A DNA stretch of 41,298 nt. Origin: Nitrospirota bacterium (lineage in GTDB: Bacteria; Nitrospirota; UBA9217). The number at the start of each line of letters is the position of its first letter. The stretch's first letter is position 1. The DNA lies in the NCBI GenBank assembly GCA_029858565.1, contig JAOUEV010000030.1, forward strand, positions 1 to 41,298. Direction: 5' to 3'. This document shows, one piece after another, positions 17,710 to 23,089 of this stretch. The position numbers and the translations under genes are program-made. Below the pieces are notes generated by a model that saw only the letters and a list, made by a program, of their open reading frames with translations, searched no databases and was not told where the DNA came from.

Positions 17710-18547
17710 CCGTGAGGGTTATCCACTTCCCATCGGTCAAGGTGTCTGACAGACTGAGACCGGAGATCTTCATGGCATTGATAACTTCCGTCTCCTGGCC
17801 TTTCAGTATGCCTGAAAGAATGGCGATCCCGCGCGGCTCCAGAAGTCCGGCGATCTCCTTCGCAAGTGCTACGAGCGTTCCGGAGATGAGATTCGCTGCG
17901 ATCATATTATAGCGTCCTGTTGCATAACTGATATCTCCCTTGATAAGTTTTACCGCACCTGCCTGGTTTAACTCAAGGTTCCCTCTGGCAGCCTCGATCG
18001 CCAGCGGATCCGTATCAATCCCATCTATCGAGCGAAAACCTAATTTCAACGCCGCGATGGCCAGGAGTCCTGTCCCCGTTCCGATGTCCAGGAACCGGTC
18101 ATGCTCAACACGGTCGGCATGTTTTTCCATGAGGATCAGGCACGACCTGGTCGTTTCGTGATGACCGGTGCCGAAGGCCATGCCGGGGTCTATGATCAGG
18201 GCGATGCGGTTCTCTGTGTGCCGGTCCCATGGTGGGCGGATGCTGAAATGATGACCGATATCTACAGGAGGAAAGTTCTTTTTCCAGTCGATGTTCCAGT
18301 CTTGGTCGCCAAGGACCGCGTAATCAAAAGAAAGGGCGGAGTCTGGAACTGTTCCACCAATGTCAAGGAGCGATCGCATCACTGAAAGCTCTGTTGCAAC
18401 GGCCTGTCGGTCCGCTGAAAGAGGGAAAAAGGCGATCAGCGAACCTTCTTCTTCTATGACGCCAAGGCAACCTTTGGTGTTAAGGTGCCTGGTAAGCGCC
18501 TCATGATAGCGGTCATGTAGCTTTATGGTGAATTGGTGATAAGGCAT
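17675..18547 (-). CDS. prmA: Ribosomal protein L11 methyltransferase
   Basis: 290 residues, usual for PrmA, which trimethylates lysines and the N-terminus of L11 using SAM. Seen: an N-terminal ferredoxin-like substrate domain, the hallmark PGMAFGTGHHETTRSC, the SAM loop DIGTGTGLLAIAALKLG, DIDTDP-like GIDTDPLAIEAA, and AANLISGTL at the catalytic loop. It runs opposite to lolD and its last 12 codons overlap the end of lolD. The ATG at 18547 has no Shine-Dalgarno sequence and lies 12 bases after a -10 element, so translation from a very short leader is likely. Confidence 0.94.
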   Translation of the reverse strand: MPYHQFTIKLHDRYHEALTRHLNTKGCLGVIEEEGSLIAFFPLSADRQAVATELSVMRSLLDIGGTVPDSALSFDYAVLGDQDWNIDWKKNFPPVDIGHHFSIRPPWDRHTENRIALIIDPGMAFGTGHHETTRSCLILMEKHADRVEHDRFLDIGTGTGLLAIAALKLGFRSIDGIDTDPLAIEAARGNLELNQAGAVKLIKGDISYATGRYNMIAANLISGTLVALAKEIAGLLEPRGIAILSGILKGQETEVINAMKISGLSLSDTLTDGKWITLTVTGASTSLQPS

Positions 18548-18651: not shown

Positions 18652-18680
18652 TTGACAGGCAGTTCCCGGTATGATAGATT
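18652..18680 (+). promoter_or_regulatory. Promoter of the globin-sensor gene
   Basis: TTGACA (18652-18657), a 17-base spacer and TAGATT (18675-18680). A GAGGA ribosome site follows just before the ATG at 18699. It diverges from the prmA promoter. Confidence 0.55.
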
Positions 18681-18698
18681 CACTATGCGAGGATAACT

Positions 18699-19595
18699 AT
18701 GAGGACATTTAAAGAGATAAAACAGGATTACCGCTTCACGCCTGATGACGAACGTCGTCTTGCCGACCTGAAGCCGCTCATGGACGAGCACGCGGAGGAG
18801 ATTCTGAGCACGGTTTCTCTCTGGTTCAAGGGCACGAAAGGCGCTGCTAAATTCTTTACCGAGGAAACTCTGCAGAAGCACGTATTTGATTCTCAGAAGG
18901 AATGGTTCCTGCTGCTCTTTTCGGGGAAATACGATAATACGTATTATGACAAGCTGATAAAGATCGGCATGGCGCATATGCGCCGGAACGTTGATGTGCA
19001 TTATCTTCACCGCATGGCGAACATTATTAAGAATTCCTGTACCGGCGCGCTGTCGAAGACAGACGACAGCAGGGAAGAGATGACGAGCAATATAGTCGTG
19101 CTCGGCAAGATCATCGATATGAGCCTCAATGTCATCACTAATGCCTATATTGAGGAAGAGATGCGGGTCTACTCGCCGGTATACAAGGTGCGCAGCGCTC
19201 TAATCAGCTTCTCCGAGCGATTTTCCCAGACGACGAACTTCATCCTGGTATTTGCGCTGATCGGCCTGACGCTTGGAGTGGTATGGCTGTTCTTGCGCGA
19301 CGTCATGCATATTTTCGAAGGTGATGTCGAGCGTGGTATCATATCAGCGCTTGGTTCCATGCTCCTCCTCTGGCTCATGATAGAGCTCATGAGCACGGAA
19401 ATTGCCCATTTGAAAGGCGGCAAGTTCCATATCAGCGTTTTTGTCGGTGTCGCTCTTGTCACGATGATCCGCGAGACGATGATCGCCACGCTTCGCCATG
19501 AGAAGCCTGAATCGATCTATTATCTTATCGCGGCCATTCTGGTCATCGGTTTTGTTTACTGGATCGTGACCAGGGCTGAAGACCGGTCCAAGTAG
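18699..19595 (+). CDS. Globin-coupled membrane sensor: protoglobin domain plus PsiE-like membrane domain
   Basis: 298 residues. Residues 1-160 look like a sensor globin/protoglobin (YRFTPDDERRLADLKPLMDEH start). The likely proximal haem histidine is H93 in KIGMAHMRRNVDVHYL, and H61 is a candidate distal ligand. Residues 180-295 hold four membrane helices resembling the PsiE (phosphate-starvation-inducible) family: a long helical pair, then ELMSTEIAHLKGGKFHISVFVGVALVTMIRE. This is the architecture of the globin-coupled sensor described from Geobacter sulfurreducens (GsGCS), whose output is unknown. It probably binds O2, NO or CO, or senses redox state, at the cytoplasmic face. It has its own promoter and no partner in the same transcript. 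Confidence 0.85.
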   Translation: MRTFKEIKQDYRFTPDDERRLADLKPLMDEHAEEILSTVSLWFKGTKGAAKFFTEETLQKHVFDSQKEWFLLLFSGKYDNTYYDKLIKIGMAHMRRNVDVHYLHRMANIIKNSCTGALSKTDDSREEMTSNIVVLGKIIDMSLNVITNAYIEEEMRVYSPVYKVRSALISFSERFSQTTNFILVFALIGLTLGVVWLFLRDVMHIFEGDVERGIISALGSMLLLWLMIELMSTEIAHLKGGKFHISVFVGVALVTMIRETMIATLRHEKPESIYYLIAAILVIGFVYWIVTRAEDRSK

Positions 19596-19754
19596 CCATG
19601 GTTGACCTTATATCCCGTCAGCGGCATCTCTATCGCGGCTATTCCCACATTATTCGTCACTTCGTCACAGCCCTGTAAGTTCGTTCCTCGTATTTCAGTC
19701 GTGCAATGGCTTGATCCCGGTGCGTCGGGTCGATCTGTCTTGCGCGGCTCAATT

Positions 19755-19798
19755 CTATGATCCAGATCATAGTCGTATCAATTGCGAAAGCAGATAAT
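19755..19798 (+). promoter_or_regulatory. FNR/CRP-type box and -10 element of the CBS-HPP operon
   Basis: CTATGATCCAGATCATAG (19755-19772) is a perfect 8-base inverted repeat with a 2-base centre. Its core TGAT-N4-ATCA is the FNR half-site pattern. Twenty-two bases after the 14-base box (19757-19770) comes GATAAT (19793-19798), a five-of-six -10. That puts the box at about -41.5 from a start near 19805, the class II activator position for FNR/CRP proteins. The start codon of the CBS gene is at 19816. Confidence 0.7.
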
Positions 19799-19815
19799 GA
19801 TCATGCAGGATCAGG

Positions 19816-20419
19816 ATGCCTGAGGATAGTGGCCATGTCGAAAGATGCGTGTGCAGAAAAAACGACCTGAAGGACGAAGACTTCAGGGCGGCTCTCGTAG
19901 CTCTGAGGAATCATGTCGACATTACCGAGGAGGACCTTCTCAAGATCTATGAACTGGCGCTCAGGCATGTGCGGGAACGCCTTGTGGGACGCGTACCGGT
20001 CAGGGACGTCATGAGCACCAACGTCGTGACAGTGCAAAAGGGGATTGACGTACACGACGCCGCGCAACTTCTATCTGAACATCATATAAGCGGCATGCCC
20101 GTTGTCACCGATGAAGGCGCCGTGGCAGGTGTGCTTTCTGAGGATGATATTCTGGCCCTCATGGTCTTCCCGCGGGTGACATCGTTCCGGGACATCCTGC
20201 GGCATCTTTTAGGCGAACCTGTTCGCGCGAAACAAAACAGCGGATTAGTGGAGCATGTCCTCGCTGGCAGTCACCATTTCCCAGGATCGGGATGTTCGGG
20301 ATGCCGCTGAAGTGCTTCATGCCCGAAAGACCAAACGCCTTCCCGTGGTCGATCAAAATGGCAAGCTTGTAGGGATCATAACGCGCCCGGATATTGTGCG
20401 GGTGATCGGAAAGCTATGA
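19816..20419 (+). pseudogene. CBS-domain protein, interrupted by one frameshift
   Basis: The first frame (19816-20310) gives an N-terminal helical region, a complete CBS domain (VRDVMSTNVVTVQKGIDVHDAAQLLSEHHISGMPVVTDEGAVAGVLSEDDI) and then nonsense to a stop. The second CBS domain continues in another frame from about 20249 (MSSLAVTISQDRDVRDAAEV ... RLPVVDQNGKLVGIITRPDIV) to TGA at 20419. A shift of +1 (one extra base or two missing) between about 20240 and 20260 joins them into a normal protein of about 200 residues. The second frame's stop overlaps the ATG of the HPP gene (ATGA), showing the intact gene was the first of a coupled pair. CBS pairs bind adenosyl nucleotides. Real decay or an assembly error cannot be told apart here. 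Confidence 0.8.
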
Positions 20420-20961
20420 AACTGGCGGAGTACCTGGGGAAAATGGGTGGAAGCGCAAAAGCGCCGCCCGGCGTAGGGCCTTGGGAGCTGTTCTGGTCCT
20501 GGATCGGTTCGGTCATCGGGATCGGTCTCTGCGGATATCTGTCAGCGAAGTACTTTGAGCCTTCGGACCGGACGCTCTTGATCGGGTCCTTTGGAGCTTC
20601 GGCCGTGCTGGTCTACGGAGCGATAAAAAGCCCGCTCGCCCAGCCTAGGAATCTGGTAGGTGGTCACTTCATCTCAGGCATAGTAGGCGTGGCATGTTCG
20701 TTGCTTTTCGGCGATACTCCCTGGATTGCCGGAGCGCTGGCAGTATCAATTGCAATTGTGGCGATGCTGGCAACTAAGACCCTCCATCCGCCGGGAGGCG
20801 CCACTGCGCTCATCGCGGTCATTGGAGGCCCAAAGATCCACGCCCTGGGCTTCACCTATGCCCTTGTTCCTGCAGGAGCAGGCGCAGTGATCCTTCTAGT
20901 CGTCGCGCTGGTGGTCAATAATCTGTCGAAAGATCGGCGATATCCCGAGTATTGGTTCTAA
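20416..20961 (+). CDS. HPP-family integral membrane protein
   Basis: 181 residues with about four to five membrane helices (about 28-47, 54-70, 82-100, 104-122, 145-168). The name-giving motif LHPPGGATAL is at about residues 122-131, preceded by the usual SFGASAVLVYG and QPRNLVGGHFISGIVG blocks. Cyanobacterial and plant HPP proteins have been linked to nitrite transport across membranes; bacterial members fused or coupled to CBS domains are common and mostly uncharacterised. The ATGA overlap with the CBS gene implies that the CBS protein regulates this one. A strong terminator follows. Confidence 0.9.
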   Translation: MKLAEYLGKMGGSAKAPPGVGPWELFWSWIGSVIGIGLCGYLSAKYFEPSDRTLLIGSFGASAVLVYGAIKSPLAQPRNLVGGHFISGIVGVACSLLFGDTPWIAGALAVSIAIVAMLATKTLHPPGGATALIAVIGGPKIHALGFTYALVPAGAGAVILLVVALVVNNLSKDRRYPEYWF

Positions 20962-20990
20962 AGCGGTTTATCGGCAAAAGGGAACCGGAA

Positions 20991-21033
20991 ACAGCAAAGC
21001 CGGGCAAACGGGTGCCCGGCTTTGCTGTTTTGC
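20991..21033. terminator. Rho-independent terminator, likely bidirectional
   Basis: A perfect 16-bp stem (20991-21006 with 21013-21028), a six-base loop, and TTTTGC on the plus side. It lies between the convergent HPP and Rrf2 genes and can end transcription of the HPP operon; the minus side lacks a strong T run. Confidence 0.85.
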
Positions 21034-21049
21034 AGACAAACGCCAGGTT

Positions 21050-21454
21050 CTAGCGTTTCTTCTTGGTGAGGTCTTTGATCGTTTTCTTCAAAAGGCGTTT
21101 TTCCACTTCCTGCCGGATCTCGACCCAAAGAGGATGGACAACGCACGTGCTGCTCATCCTGCACAATCGTTTGTCTGTAGCGCAGATGTTTATCCCCGTA
21201 TCTCCCTGTATCGATTCCATAATGGCGAGGAGGCTGATATGCTCGGGTTTCCTGGCCAGGCGAAATCCTCCGGCCACGCCGCGTATGGACGAGAGTATCC
21301 CGCTCTTCACGAGGCGCTGTACGATCTTGGCAAGGAAGCTTTTCGGAATATGCATCGCTTTAGCGATCTCCGATACGCTGGCGAGCGGTTTTGATTCTCC
21401 TGCAAGAAAGAGAACCGTTCTGATCGCATAGTCGGTCTCACGAGTAACAAGCAT
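21050..21454 (-). CDS. Rrf2-family iron-sulfur transcription regulator
   Basis: 134 residues. An N-terminal winged helix-turn-helix (METDYAIR-type start MLVTRETDYAIRTVLFLA, SVSEIAKAMHIPKSFLAKIVQRLVKSGILSSIRGVAGGF) is followed by three cysteines C91, C98 and C104, which should hold a [2Fe-2S] or [4Fe-4S] cluster. The spacing C-x6-C-x5-C is closer to NsrR (NO sensing, C-x5-C-x5-C) than to IscR (C-x5-C-x7-C) but equals neither. The C-terminus is very basic (KKTIKDLTKKKR). A palindrome over its own -10 suggests autoregulation. Neighbours (NapH-like polyferredoxin, cupin, globin sensor) fit a role in NO or redox sensing. Confidence 0.9.
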   Translation of the reverse strand: MLVTRETDYAIRTVLFLAGESKPLASVSEIAKAMHIPKSFLAKIVQRLVKSGILSSIRGVAGGFRLARKPEHISLLAIMESIQGDTGINICATDKRLCRMSSTCVVHPLWVEIRQEVEKRLLKKTIKDLTKKKR

Positions 21455-21532
21455 GGGTTTGGTACACCGCCTCTCGGGCCGCGCCTGTGCGCTCGATGTT
21501 CAGGTAAATGAGCTCAATCAGGTACATCCAGC

Positions 21533-21569
21533 CTGCTATTTATTAACCAATAGCAGCAGTGTTTGTCAA
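21533..21569 (-). promoter_or_regulatory. Promoter and likely operator of the Rrf2 gene
   Basis: On the minus strand TTGACA (21569-21564), a 17-base spacer and TTAATA (21546-21541). An inverted repeat with perfect 8-base arms (CTGCTATT 21533-21540, AATAGCAG 21549-21556, 8-base centre) covers the -10. AATAGCA occurs again at 21568-21574. A regulator bound here would block the promoter, so autorepression by the Rrf2 protein is plausible. Confidence 0.55.
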
Positions 21570-21663
21570 TAGCATTTTCCCTAACAGGGAGATGTCTGGT
21601 CCGGAATAGTCCTACGAGCTGTGTGCAGCGTCACATGAGTTCCTCTGCGAGCAGCAGGAGCCG

Positions 21664-21978
21664 TCACTCTACCGGAGTCACAACGGCCATGACCACGAGC
21701 TGCTCTCCCTGATCAGCGGCAAATCCATGGAGAACATTTGGGTCACAGGGAATACAGGTCTTTGCATCTGCCACGATCTTCTCATCTCCCACGGTAAAGG
21801 TTCCCTTTCCTTCAACACAGTACATGAGCAGGCGAAGAGGTGCCTTGTGGGGCTCAAGTTTCTGCCCCGGACTGAGGCACATCAAGGCGATGCGCATTTC
21901 CGGACTGTCCTTCAGCATTTCCCGGGAGATGCGATCAGGGTAGAACTTTGCGACTTTCTTGAGATCGATGGTTTCCAT
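21664..21978 (-). CDS. Small cupin-domain protein
   Basis: 104 residues, a single cupin (beta-barrel) domain: LSPGQKLEPHKAPLRLLMYCVEGKGTFTVGDEKIVADAKTCIPCDPNVLHGF. The usual metal ligands are partly present (H in EPHKAP, H in VLHGF; the Glu of the first motif is not in its normal place), so metal binding is uncertain. AAAGGAG lies five bases before the ATG at 21978, which decides the start over a GTG five codons upstream. It lies 97 bases after the NapH-like gene on the same strand and may share its FNR-controlled transcript. Function unknown; a sensor or storage role in redox stress is a guess. Confidence 0.8.
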   Translation of the reverse strand: METIDLKKVAKFYPDRISREMLKDSPEMRIALMCLSPGQKLEPHKAPLRLLMYCVEGKGTFTVGDEKIVADAKTCIPCDPNVLHGFAADQGEQLVVMAVVTPVE

Positions 21979-22075
21979 AGAAACTCCTTTCACGAACAGC
22001 GATTAGTAACACGTATACAGCTGATCAGTCATGATATCGCGGCAGAAACACAGCATGCATCATAGAGTATCAGCA

Positions 22076-23011
22076 TCACTGGACAACTGTCTTCGGTTGT
22101 AAGTTTTTGCAGTTTTCCTCGGGCAGGGAACATTGCCCGCTTCCCAATCCCAGATGGAACAATCCGTTGCCCCGTCCCAGTTCCTTGTTGCAGGCAACAA
22201 TACAAGCGCCGCAATTTACACAAGATATGTCCCGCTTGTTTTTACGAGGCGAAACTTTCATGAAGCAGGCCCGGTCGCAGCCTTTGCAATCAGTGCACGC
22301 CGATATGCGCGAAACGTCCATGTTGAGCCGCAGCGAACGGGAACTGAGCCATCCGAAGAGCATCTGCATGAGTCCTGCCGCGCAGACAAATCTGCAGAGC
22401 ACATGACGGACGACGATCGACGTGATGAGCATGTAGATCGCCACGCCGATGATGCCGGCCTTGACGCCGAAGGTAAATTGCCAGTTCACGATCTGGCTCC
22501 AGATTGTTGCCGGAGCCACGAAATACCCGGTGAGCGCCACGCCGCCGGCAAGAGGGATGATGAGTGCGCTCGCCAGGGCGATGGTTCCATACACAGGTCT
22601 GTTTCCTTTTGCCTGCGGCGGATCATTCGGATGAGCGTTGAAGAGATCTCTCCGGCCGATCAGTTTGAGAGTGAGGAAATCAGAGAGTTCGAACAGGGCG
22701 CCTTCAGGACAGGCCCAACCGCAGAACAACCGGCCGGTAAAGTAGCCAAGCAGCGGAAAGACCGCAAGGAACACGAGCCAGGGCAGTATGCCCTTCAGGA
22801 AGACCTGCAGCGCTATATGAAATGCAGAGGATGCGCCCCTGTCGGCATACAATTCCGGCTGGATGCCGAAACTCCATGACGTTCCGAACAGGATAAGCTC
22901 ATGGGTGTCCGAGTCGATCCTCAGGATGTTCAACACCGGCATCAGGAAAACGAGCAGGATGAATGCTATCTGTGATAAGCGACGATACGTGGTCAGGCGA
23001 TCGGTTCCCAT
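22076..23011 (-). CDS. NapH/CcoG-like membrane polyferredoxin
   Basis: 311 residues. About five membrane helices (12-30, 66-90, 141-165, 182-204 and a short one near 207-222). Two membrane-proximal CxxxC motifs, C97/C101 (FCGWACPEG) and C206/C210 (CRFVC), and two [4Fe-4S] ferredoxin motifs, C239-x2-C-x2-C-x3-C249 and C264-x2-C-x2-C-x3-C274, place it with NapH, NosR C-terminal and CcoG/RdxA proteins, which move electrons from quinol across the membrane to periplasmic or cytosolic partners. No nap, nos or cco genes are near, so its partner is unknown. The ATG has no ribosome site and lies six bases past a -10, with an FNR-type box upstream. Confidence 0.88.
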   Translation of the reverse strand: MGTDRLTTYRRLSQIAFILLVFLMPVLNILRIDSDTHELILFGTSWSFGIQPELYADRGASSAFHIALQVFLKGILPWLVFLAVFPLLGYFTGRLFCGWACPEGALFELSDFLTLKLIGRRDLFNAHPNDPPQAKGNRPVYGTIALASALIIPLAGGVALTGYFVAPATIWSQIVNWQFTFGVKAGIIGVAIYMLITSIVVRHVLCRFVCAAGLMQMLFGWLSSRSLRLNMDVSRISACTDCKGCDRACFMKVSPRKNKRDISCVNCGACIVACNKELGRGNGLFHLGLGSGQCSLPEENCKNLQPKTVVQ

Positions 23012-23017
23012 GGTCTA

Positions 23018-23060
23018 TTTATACCATGTCTGCGCTAGGGGCGATATGACATGGGTCATA
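23018..23060 (-). promoter_or_regulatory. FNR/CRP-type box and -10 element of the NapH-like gene
   Basis: TATGAC-ATGG-GTCATA (23045-23060) is a perfect inverted repeat with 6-base arms and the 4-base centre typical of FNR/CRP sites, here with TGAC instead of TGAT halves. On the minus strand 22 bases separate the 14-base box (23059-23046) from TATAAA (23023-23018). This is the same spacing as at the CBS-HPP operon, so the box again sits at about -41.5. Transcription would begin at about the A of the ATG (23011). Confidence 0.65.
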
Positions 23061-23089
23061 AGCCGGATACGGCCGGATCAAGGGTCTGT

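Follow-up and report, generated by a model that had tools for sequence, protein, structure and literature searches.

The 41,298-nucleotide stretch analysed here, referred to as the window, is contig JAOUEV010000030.1 of a groundwater-type Nitrospirota bacterium of the UBA9217 lineage (assembly GCA_029858565.1). Between positions 18652 and 23060, it carries an island of genes for a globin-PsiE membrane protein, a CBS-domain protein, an HPP family membrane protein, an Rrf2-family regulator, a small cupin, and a NapH-like polyferredoxin. We put at roughly two in three the probability that this island is part of a dispersed Nitrospirota regulon for nitric oxide (NO) and nitrite, activated by a CRP/FNR-family protein through the operator TATGAY-N4-RTCATA. 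In relatives, the genes adjoin norCB and nrfA and have an unusual 16-letter operator in common with them, and the island therefore probably belongs to a real network of nitrogen-oxide defence or respiration. Profile searches against Pfam and NCBIfam, on which the family assignments of the window genes are based, identified each family named in a preliminary description of the island (globin sensor, CBS, HPP, Rrf2, cupin, and NapH-like), confirming that observation.

Two palindromes of the window, one before the CBS gene and one before the NapH-like gene, match TATGAY-N4-RTCATA. The core ATGAY-N4-RTCAT is established upstream of norC (35/42), CBS (15/19), and NapH-like genes (29/63), with 0.1 expected in each set, and is absent before the operon-internal genes norB (0/48) and CopD (0/25). 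When all five-base half-sites were scanned without bias at spacers of 0 to 12, the TATGAY-type palindrome came out on top in the norC, CBS, and NapH-like sets only. The preliminary description had proposed FNR-type control of the NapH-like gene: the palindromes are real, but they do not match the FNR consensus TTGAT-N4-ATCAA, which occurs 0 times in all upstream sets, so the operators are not those of an FNR/DNR regulon. A relaxed scan of the window for the same consensus found 32 copies versus 22 expected, which is not above chance. Sites of the HcpR/CRP type (TTGAC-N4-GTCAA, TGTGA-N6-TCACA) were likewise rejected, with none upstream of the genes tested (TTGAY-N4-RTCAA, 0). Nor are the sites those of an HcpR regulon: hcp in the window's own genome carries TATGAY-N4-RTCATA.

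A pattern search of the window's own genome (3.9 Mb) delineated the regulon, with 11 sites for the 16-base pattern and 0 for the reversed control. Two of the 11 are the window sites. Others stand ahead of norCB, of hcp (the gene of the hybrid cluster protein; Prismane match, E 8.8e-21), and of genes for an HAO-like octahaem cytochrome with 8 CxxCH motifs, a second polyferredoxin of the NapH-like type, an 82-residue zinc-ribbon protein, and a periplasmic protein that has a CxxCH at its C terminus and weakly matches cytochrome c'. One falls within a probable rtcB gene, and a further two are found upstream of the gene for a small, haem-copper-like membrane protein, which adjoins the gene of a CRP/FNR-family regulator. 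This regulator (G000:C97:1993-2703) belongs to the CRP/FNR superfamily (PF00027, 2.4e-25; PF13545, 5.8e-18) and lacks the cysteine set with which FNR proper holds its O2-sensing 4Fe-4S cluster. In 30 orthologues, its recognition helix V-E-T-[STA]-I-R is invariant outside the bracketed position, and a site is found within about 1.5 kb at 17 of the 30 regulator loci. Genomes with a close orthologue of the regulator average 6.3 sites (control 0.5) versus 1.6 (control 0.2) in those without, values that are not phylogeny-corrected. We infer that the C97 regulator binds the TATGAY-N4-RTCATA sites. The haem-copper-like protein beside it (G000:C97:2773-3180(-), locus L247) is 135 amino acids long and gives a partial COX1 match.

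The neighbourhood was compared with 117 other genomes of the phylum. Each of the 13 assessable genomes of the window's family has the globin-PsiE, CBS, and HPP genes side by side; the 14th is truncated by the end of its contig. In two of the 13 (G002, G005), the globin gene is divergent from CBS-HPP yet still adjoins it. The outer neighbours prmA, DUF401, TonB, a methionine-synthase-like gene (metE), and DegP are not beside the island in relatives, and the conservation of the island is therefore not plain background synteny. Several family members have the cupin and NapH-like genes with this trio, and another family (G103) combines NapH-like, cupin, and HPP genes. The preliminary description had proposed that the genes sense and handle nitrite or NO as one module, and had named co-occurrence in relatives as one check. 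This interpretation is partly supported. The neighbourhood is kept while its flanks differ, relatives add norCB and nrfA, and the operator is common to two units of the island, to norCB, and to hcp. Against a single module, the island is not one operon: its genes fall into three transcription units or more and use both strands, the globin gene has its own sigma-70-like promoter, and Rrf2 is patchy and without a site.

The same description held that none of the genes is tied here to a known nap, nos, or nrf operon. They are nevertheless linked to known systems, namely in relatives to the cytochrome c-dependent NO reductase (cNOR) and, in three genomes, to NrfA. The relatives' NorB has its best match in the Protein Data Bank (PDB) to Pseudomonas cNOR (3o0r, E 2.2e-113) and has the NorB fold; its FeB ligands are the His and Glu of the active-site motif HLWVEG..E and the two His of the active-site motif HHYY. 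Weak NCBIfam matches had pointed to cbb3 oxidase subunit I, an assignment overturned by the 3o0r match and the motifs. NorC is encoded next to NorB in the relatives' islands, and an NrfA-type cytochrome c552 directly adjoins HPP in G003, G006, and G007. In G003, about 11 kb hold norC-norB-NapH-like-nrfA-HPP-CBS-globin-PsiE-second norB-norC.

The NapH-like protein (Fer4_5) contains an FCGWxCPEG motif and eight C-terminal cysteines for two 4Fe-4S clusters; those of one cluster are nearly invariant and are masked in one metagenome-assembled genome. It has the FCGWxCP membrane motif and the two C-terminal 4Fe-4S sites in common with the membrane polyferredoxins NapH and CcoG, which bears out its description as a NapH-like polyferredoxin, but it lies far under the equivalog cut-offs of both (51.5 and 43.7 bits versus 213 and 234 for the NCBIfam NapH models) and is linked to norCB rather than to nap or cco. 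A profile scan of 84,980 species genomes retrieved 63 NapH-like loci, all in Nitrospirota except for one record named only 'uncultured bacterium'. The norB gene flanks 45 of the 63, co-directional in 45/45 and upstream in 44/45. A contig end truncates most of the 18 loci that lack norB; six of the 18 lack it despite at least 9 kb of upstream sequence. Many loci have, between norB and the NapH-like gene, a gene for a CopD-like membrane protein that combines a single CxxCH with a cytochrome b5 domain (L110:8823-9824, L146:8947-9858, and about 20 further loci). In about 8 loci, an AhpC/TSA peroxiredoxin gene lies between cupin and HPP, as at L110:11857-12240(+).

In Paracoccus, insertion of FeB into cNOR requires NorQ and NorD (PMC9976466). 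The Nitrospirota genes have the norC and norB subunits in common with the Paracoccus norCBQD operon; unlike there, norB is followed by the NapH-like gene, often with cupin and the CopD-cytochrome b5 protein. Among the 15 genomes that carry this norB type, a CbbQ_C-type NorQ and a NorD homologue (queried with a bona fide Nitrospirota NorD) are both absent from 13, which accordingly lack a norCBQD operon; other MoxR-type AAA proteins are not excluded. In the other two (G006, G112), both NorQ and NorD are encoded on contigs away from norCB, and norCBQD does occur in two genomes that belong to another family and have a different norB. The NapH-like/cupin unit, often with the CopD-cytochrome b5 protein, is therefore a candidate accessory of these NO reductases. 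A stronger proposal, tentative and on balance doubtful, is that Nitrospirota cNOR works without NorQ and NorD, its FeB site being matured or its electrons supplied by the NapH-like protein and cupin (and CopD-cytochrome b5), under a CRP/FNR regulator and an undescribed nitrogen-oxide operator. In its accessible part, a survey of aquifer Nitrospirota records norBC for Thermodesulfovibrionia and norBCDQ for a single further lineage, and does not describe the present arrangement.

A mechanism can be proposed in which the operator-binding protein, the signal, and all biochemical roles are predicted from sequence. The CRP/FNR-family activator encoded on C97 would bind TATGAY-N4-RTCATA and switch on norCB, hcp, the cytochromes, CBS-HPP, and NapH-like/cupin together, and the island would thus respond to NO or nitrite. 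NorCB would reduce NO, while Hcp and the cytochromes would scavenge hydroxylamine and NO. HPP, gated by its CBS partner, may transport nitrite through the membrane. The NapH-like polyferredoxin and cupin may serve cNOR, through electron supply or metal-site maturation, in genomes mostly without NorQ/NorD, and globin-PsiE, retained alongside, would sense NO or O2 at the membrane through its haem.

Several observations weigh against a CRP/FNR-activated regulon of this kind. The genome that contains the window has norCB on a separate contig (C74) and no full-length nrfA. Within the island, the CBS gene (19816-20419) is frame-broken, the globin gene follows its own sigma-70-like promoter and lacks a proper operator, and the Rrf2 gene, linked to the island in only three relatives, has no operator here. 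Genomes without a close regulator orthologue still average 1.6 sites, and family f17 has a regulator with the same helix and no excess of sites. With regard to the signal, the C97 regulator has a single cysteine (Cys134) and no histidine. The operator and regulon statistics ignore phylogeny.

The closest genomes belong to one family, as would be expected if the island were inherited synteny without functional meaning. Its flanks are not conserved, however, and its genes are rearranged yet stay together; because the links recur in other families and the operators are shared, this explanation is largely refuted and very improbable. The signal could instead be oxygen or redox state, with the nitrogen-oxide genes only some targets of a general anaerobic (FNR-like) regulon. 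The 5-4-5 operator geometry and the V-E-x-x-x-R helix resemble those of FNR, the haem-copper-like and other membrane targets would fit, and so would the three relatives in which Rrf2 adjoins a cbb3 or bd oxidase. We consider this unlikely: the own-genome targets are mostly nitrogen-oxide genes (norCB, hcp, octahaem HAO-like, c'-like), and the regulator is without the N-terminal cysteine set for an oxygen-labile cluster.

It is also conceivable, if doubtful, that the island is composed of independent pieces, namely an NO reductase accessory unit (NapH-like, cupin) and a nitrite unit (CBS-HPP), with globin-PsiE and Rrf2 as unrelated chance neighbours. Such independence would account for globin-PsiE between purH and purD in other families, for NapH-like genes that accompany norCB without globin, and for the absence of sites at Rrf2 and globin. 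Against chance, every assessable family member keeps the globin gene next to CBS-HPP, inverted or not, and several also have it beside a second norBC.

Control of nitrogen-oxide regulons by CRP/FNR proteins is well documented (Rodionov 2005, PMC1274295). As far as that paper's accessible part describes the HcpR, DNR, NnrR, and NsrR regulons, CRP/FNR-family control of hcp, nor, and redox genes and 5-4-5 palindromes are common to them and the present regulon. The Nitrospirota operator TATGAY-N4-RTCATA differs from TTGAT-N4-ATCAA, TTGAC-N4-GTCAA, TGTGA-N6-TCACA, and GTAAC-N4-GTTAC given there; CBS-HPP and NapH-like/cupin are extra targets, and the host phylum is Nitrospirota. Relative to the accessible parts of these sources, the operator, the target genes, and the NO reductase operon without NorQD are new. 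Among open-licence papers, we found none on this gene set, and nothing relevant on norB with NapH and cupin, on CBS-HPP with nitrite, or on globin-coupled PsiE. Nitrospirota are important groundwater bacteria of the nitrogen cycle, and the predicted regulon gives testable functions to the NapH-like/cupin, CBS-HPP, and globin-PsiE families, which lack them. A cNOR without NorQD likewise makes an alternative route of FeB iron insertion testable.

Table 1 Features of the island, in window coordinates.
Feature	Position	Strand	Basis or remark
Sigma-70-like promoter of the globin gene, TTGACA-17-TAGATT, extended -10	18652..18680	+	Consensus match only
Protoglobin and PsiE four-helix membrane fusion, globin-coupled sensor type	18699..19595	+	Pfam, PDB 2w31, His93
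Operator 1, CTATGATCCAGATCATAG	19755..19772 (palindrome 19756-19771)		44 nucleotides 5' of CBS start
CBS protein, first CBS domain; frame break near 20255	19816..20310	+	Pfam, relatives
Second CBS domain, different frame; single protein in relatives	20255..20419	+	Pfam, relatives
HPP family membrane protein, putative nitrite transporter	20416..20961	+	TM_HPP
Rrf2-family regulator, C-x6-C-x5-C; island member in some relatives only	21050..21454	-	Rrf2 superfamily
AT-rich inverted repeat CTGCTATT-N8-AATAGCAG 5' of rrf2	21533..21556		Possible operator or terminator
Small cupin; probable operon partner of NapH-like gene	21664..21993	-	Cupin_2
NapH-like membrane polyferredoxin; norCB-linked in relatives	22076..23011	-	Fer4_5
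Operator 2, TTATGACCCATGTCATAT, read on the minus strand	23044..23061 (palindrome 23045-23060)		33 nucleotides 5' of NapH-like start

The HPP protein carries the TM_HPP domain of HPP nitrite transporters (E 1.4e-60, 203.8 bits). The HPP family includes members that transport nitrite, according to the accessible parts of two papers (PMC7438415; PMC4137279, which cites Maeda 2014). From what PMC4137279 relates of Maeda 2014, the window protein has the HPP four-helix membrane family in common with the nitrite transporters of cyanobacteria and chloroplasts. Unlike these, it is paired with a separate CBS protein and preceded by a presumed nitrogen-oxide operator, and its transport role is putative. 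Both families of the CBS plus HPP pair in the preliminary description are present, but the CBS gene is broken here; in relatives, it is a single gene for an intact protein of about 200 amino acids with two CBS domains. Either the assembly is in error at this break, or the loss is recent.

The Rrf2 protein scores 113.5 bits against a superfamily cut-off of 73.3. Its cysteines had been called NsrR-like, and C91, C98, and C104, spaced C-x6-C-x5-C and corresponding to the three conserved Fe-S cluster cysteines of the NsrR/IscR group, are indeed invariant in four orthologues; as an NsrR, however, it reaches only 54.1 bits of the 182 required by the NCBIfam equivalog, and it is also under the IscR and RirA cut-offs. 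The inverted repeat upstream of rrf2 was not seen in the few relatives compared. We rejected Rrf2 as a master regulator of the island on the grounds of its patchy linkage, its cytochrome bd or cbb3 oxidase neighbours elsewhere, and the lack of a common upstream repeat in those few relatives; it is a facultative island member.

The globin-PsiE protein consists of a protoglobin domain (Pfam, E 2.8e-23; PDB 2w31, E 1.6e-23) and a PsiE membrane domain (E 6.5e-23). With an invariant proximal His93 and PsiE as the output domain, it has the make-up of a globin-coupled sensor, and it would be a natural haem sensor adjoining the regulon. The protoglobin domain and His93 are common to the Geobacter sensor globin (2w31), whereas residue 66 is His in Geobacter and Gln in the window protein. 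The full-length Geobacter sensor presumably also includes a membrane domain. The globin part of an AlphaFold model was usable; the PsiE part was of low confidence, with a predicted local distance difference test score of about 55. A looser operator copy at 18503-18516 was not counted for the globin gene, as it falls in the prmA coding sequence. A second cNOR type, which diverges from the first (44-51% identity), adjoins globin-PsiE in G003 (C52:35166-36476), G002, G005, G010, and G013. In other Nitrospirota families, globin-PsiE sits in a tight operon between purH and purD, far from NO genes, at loci L058, L059, L061-L066, and L090 (e.g., L065:5710-9396).

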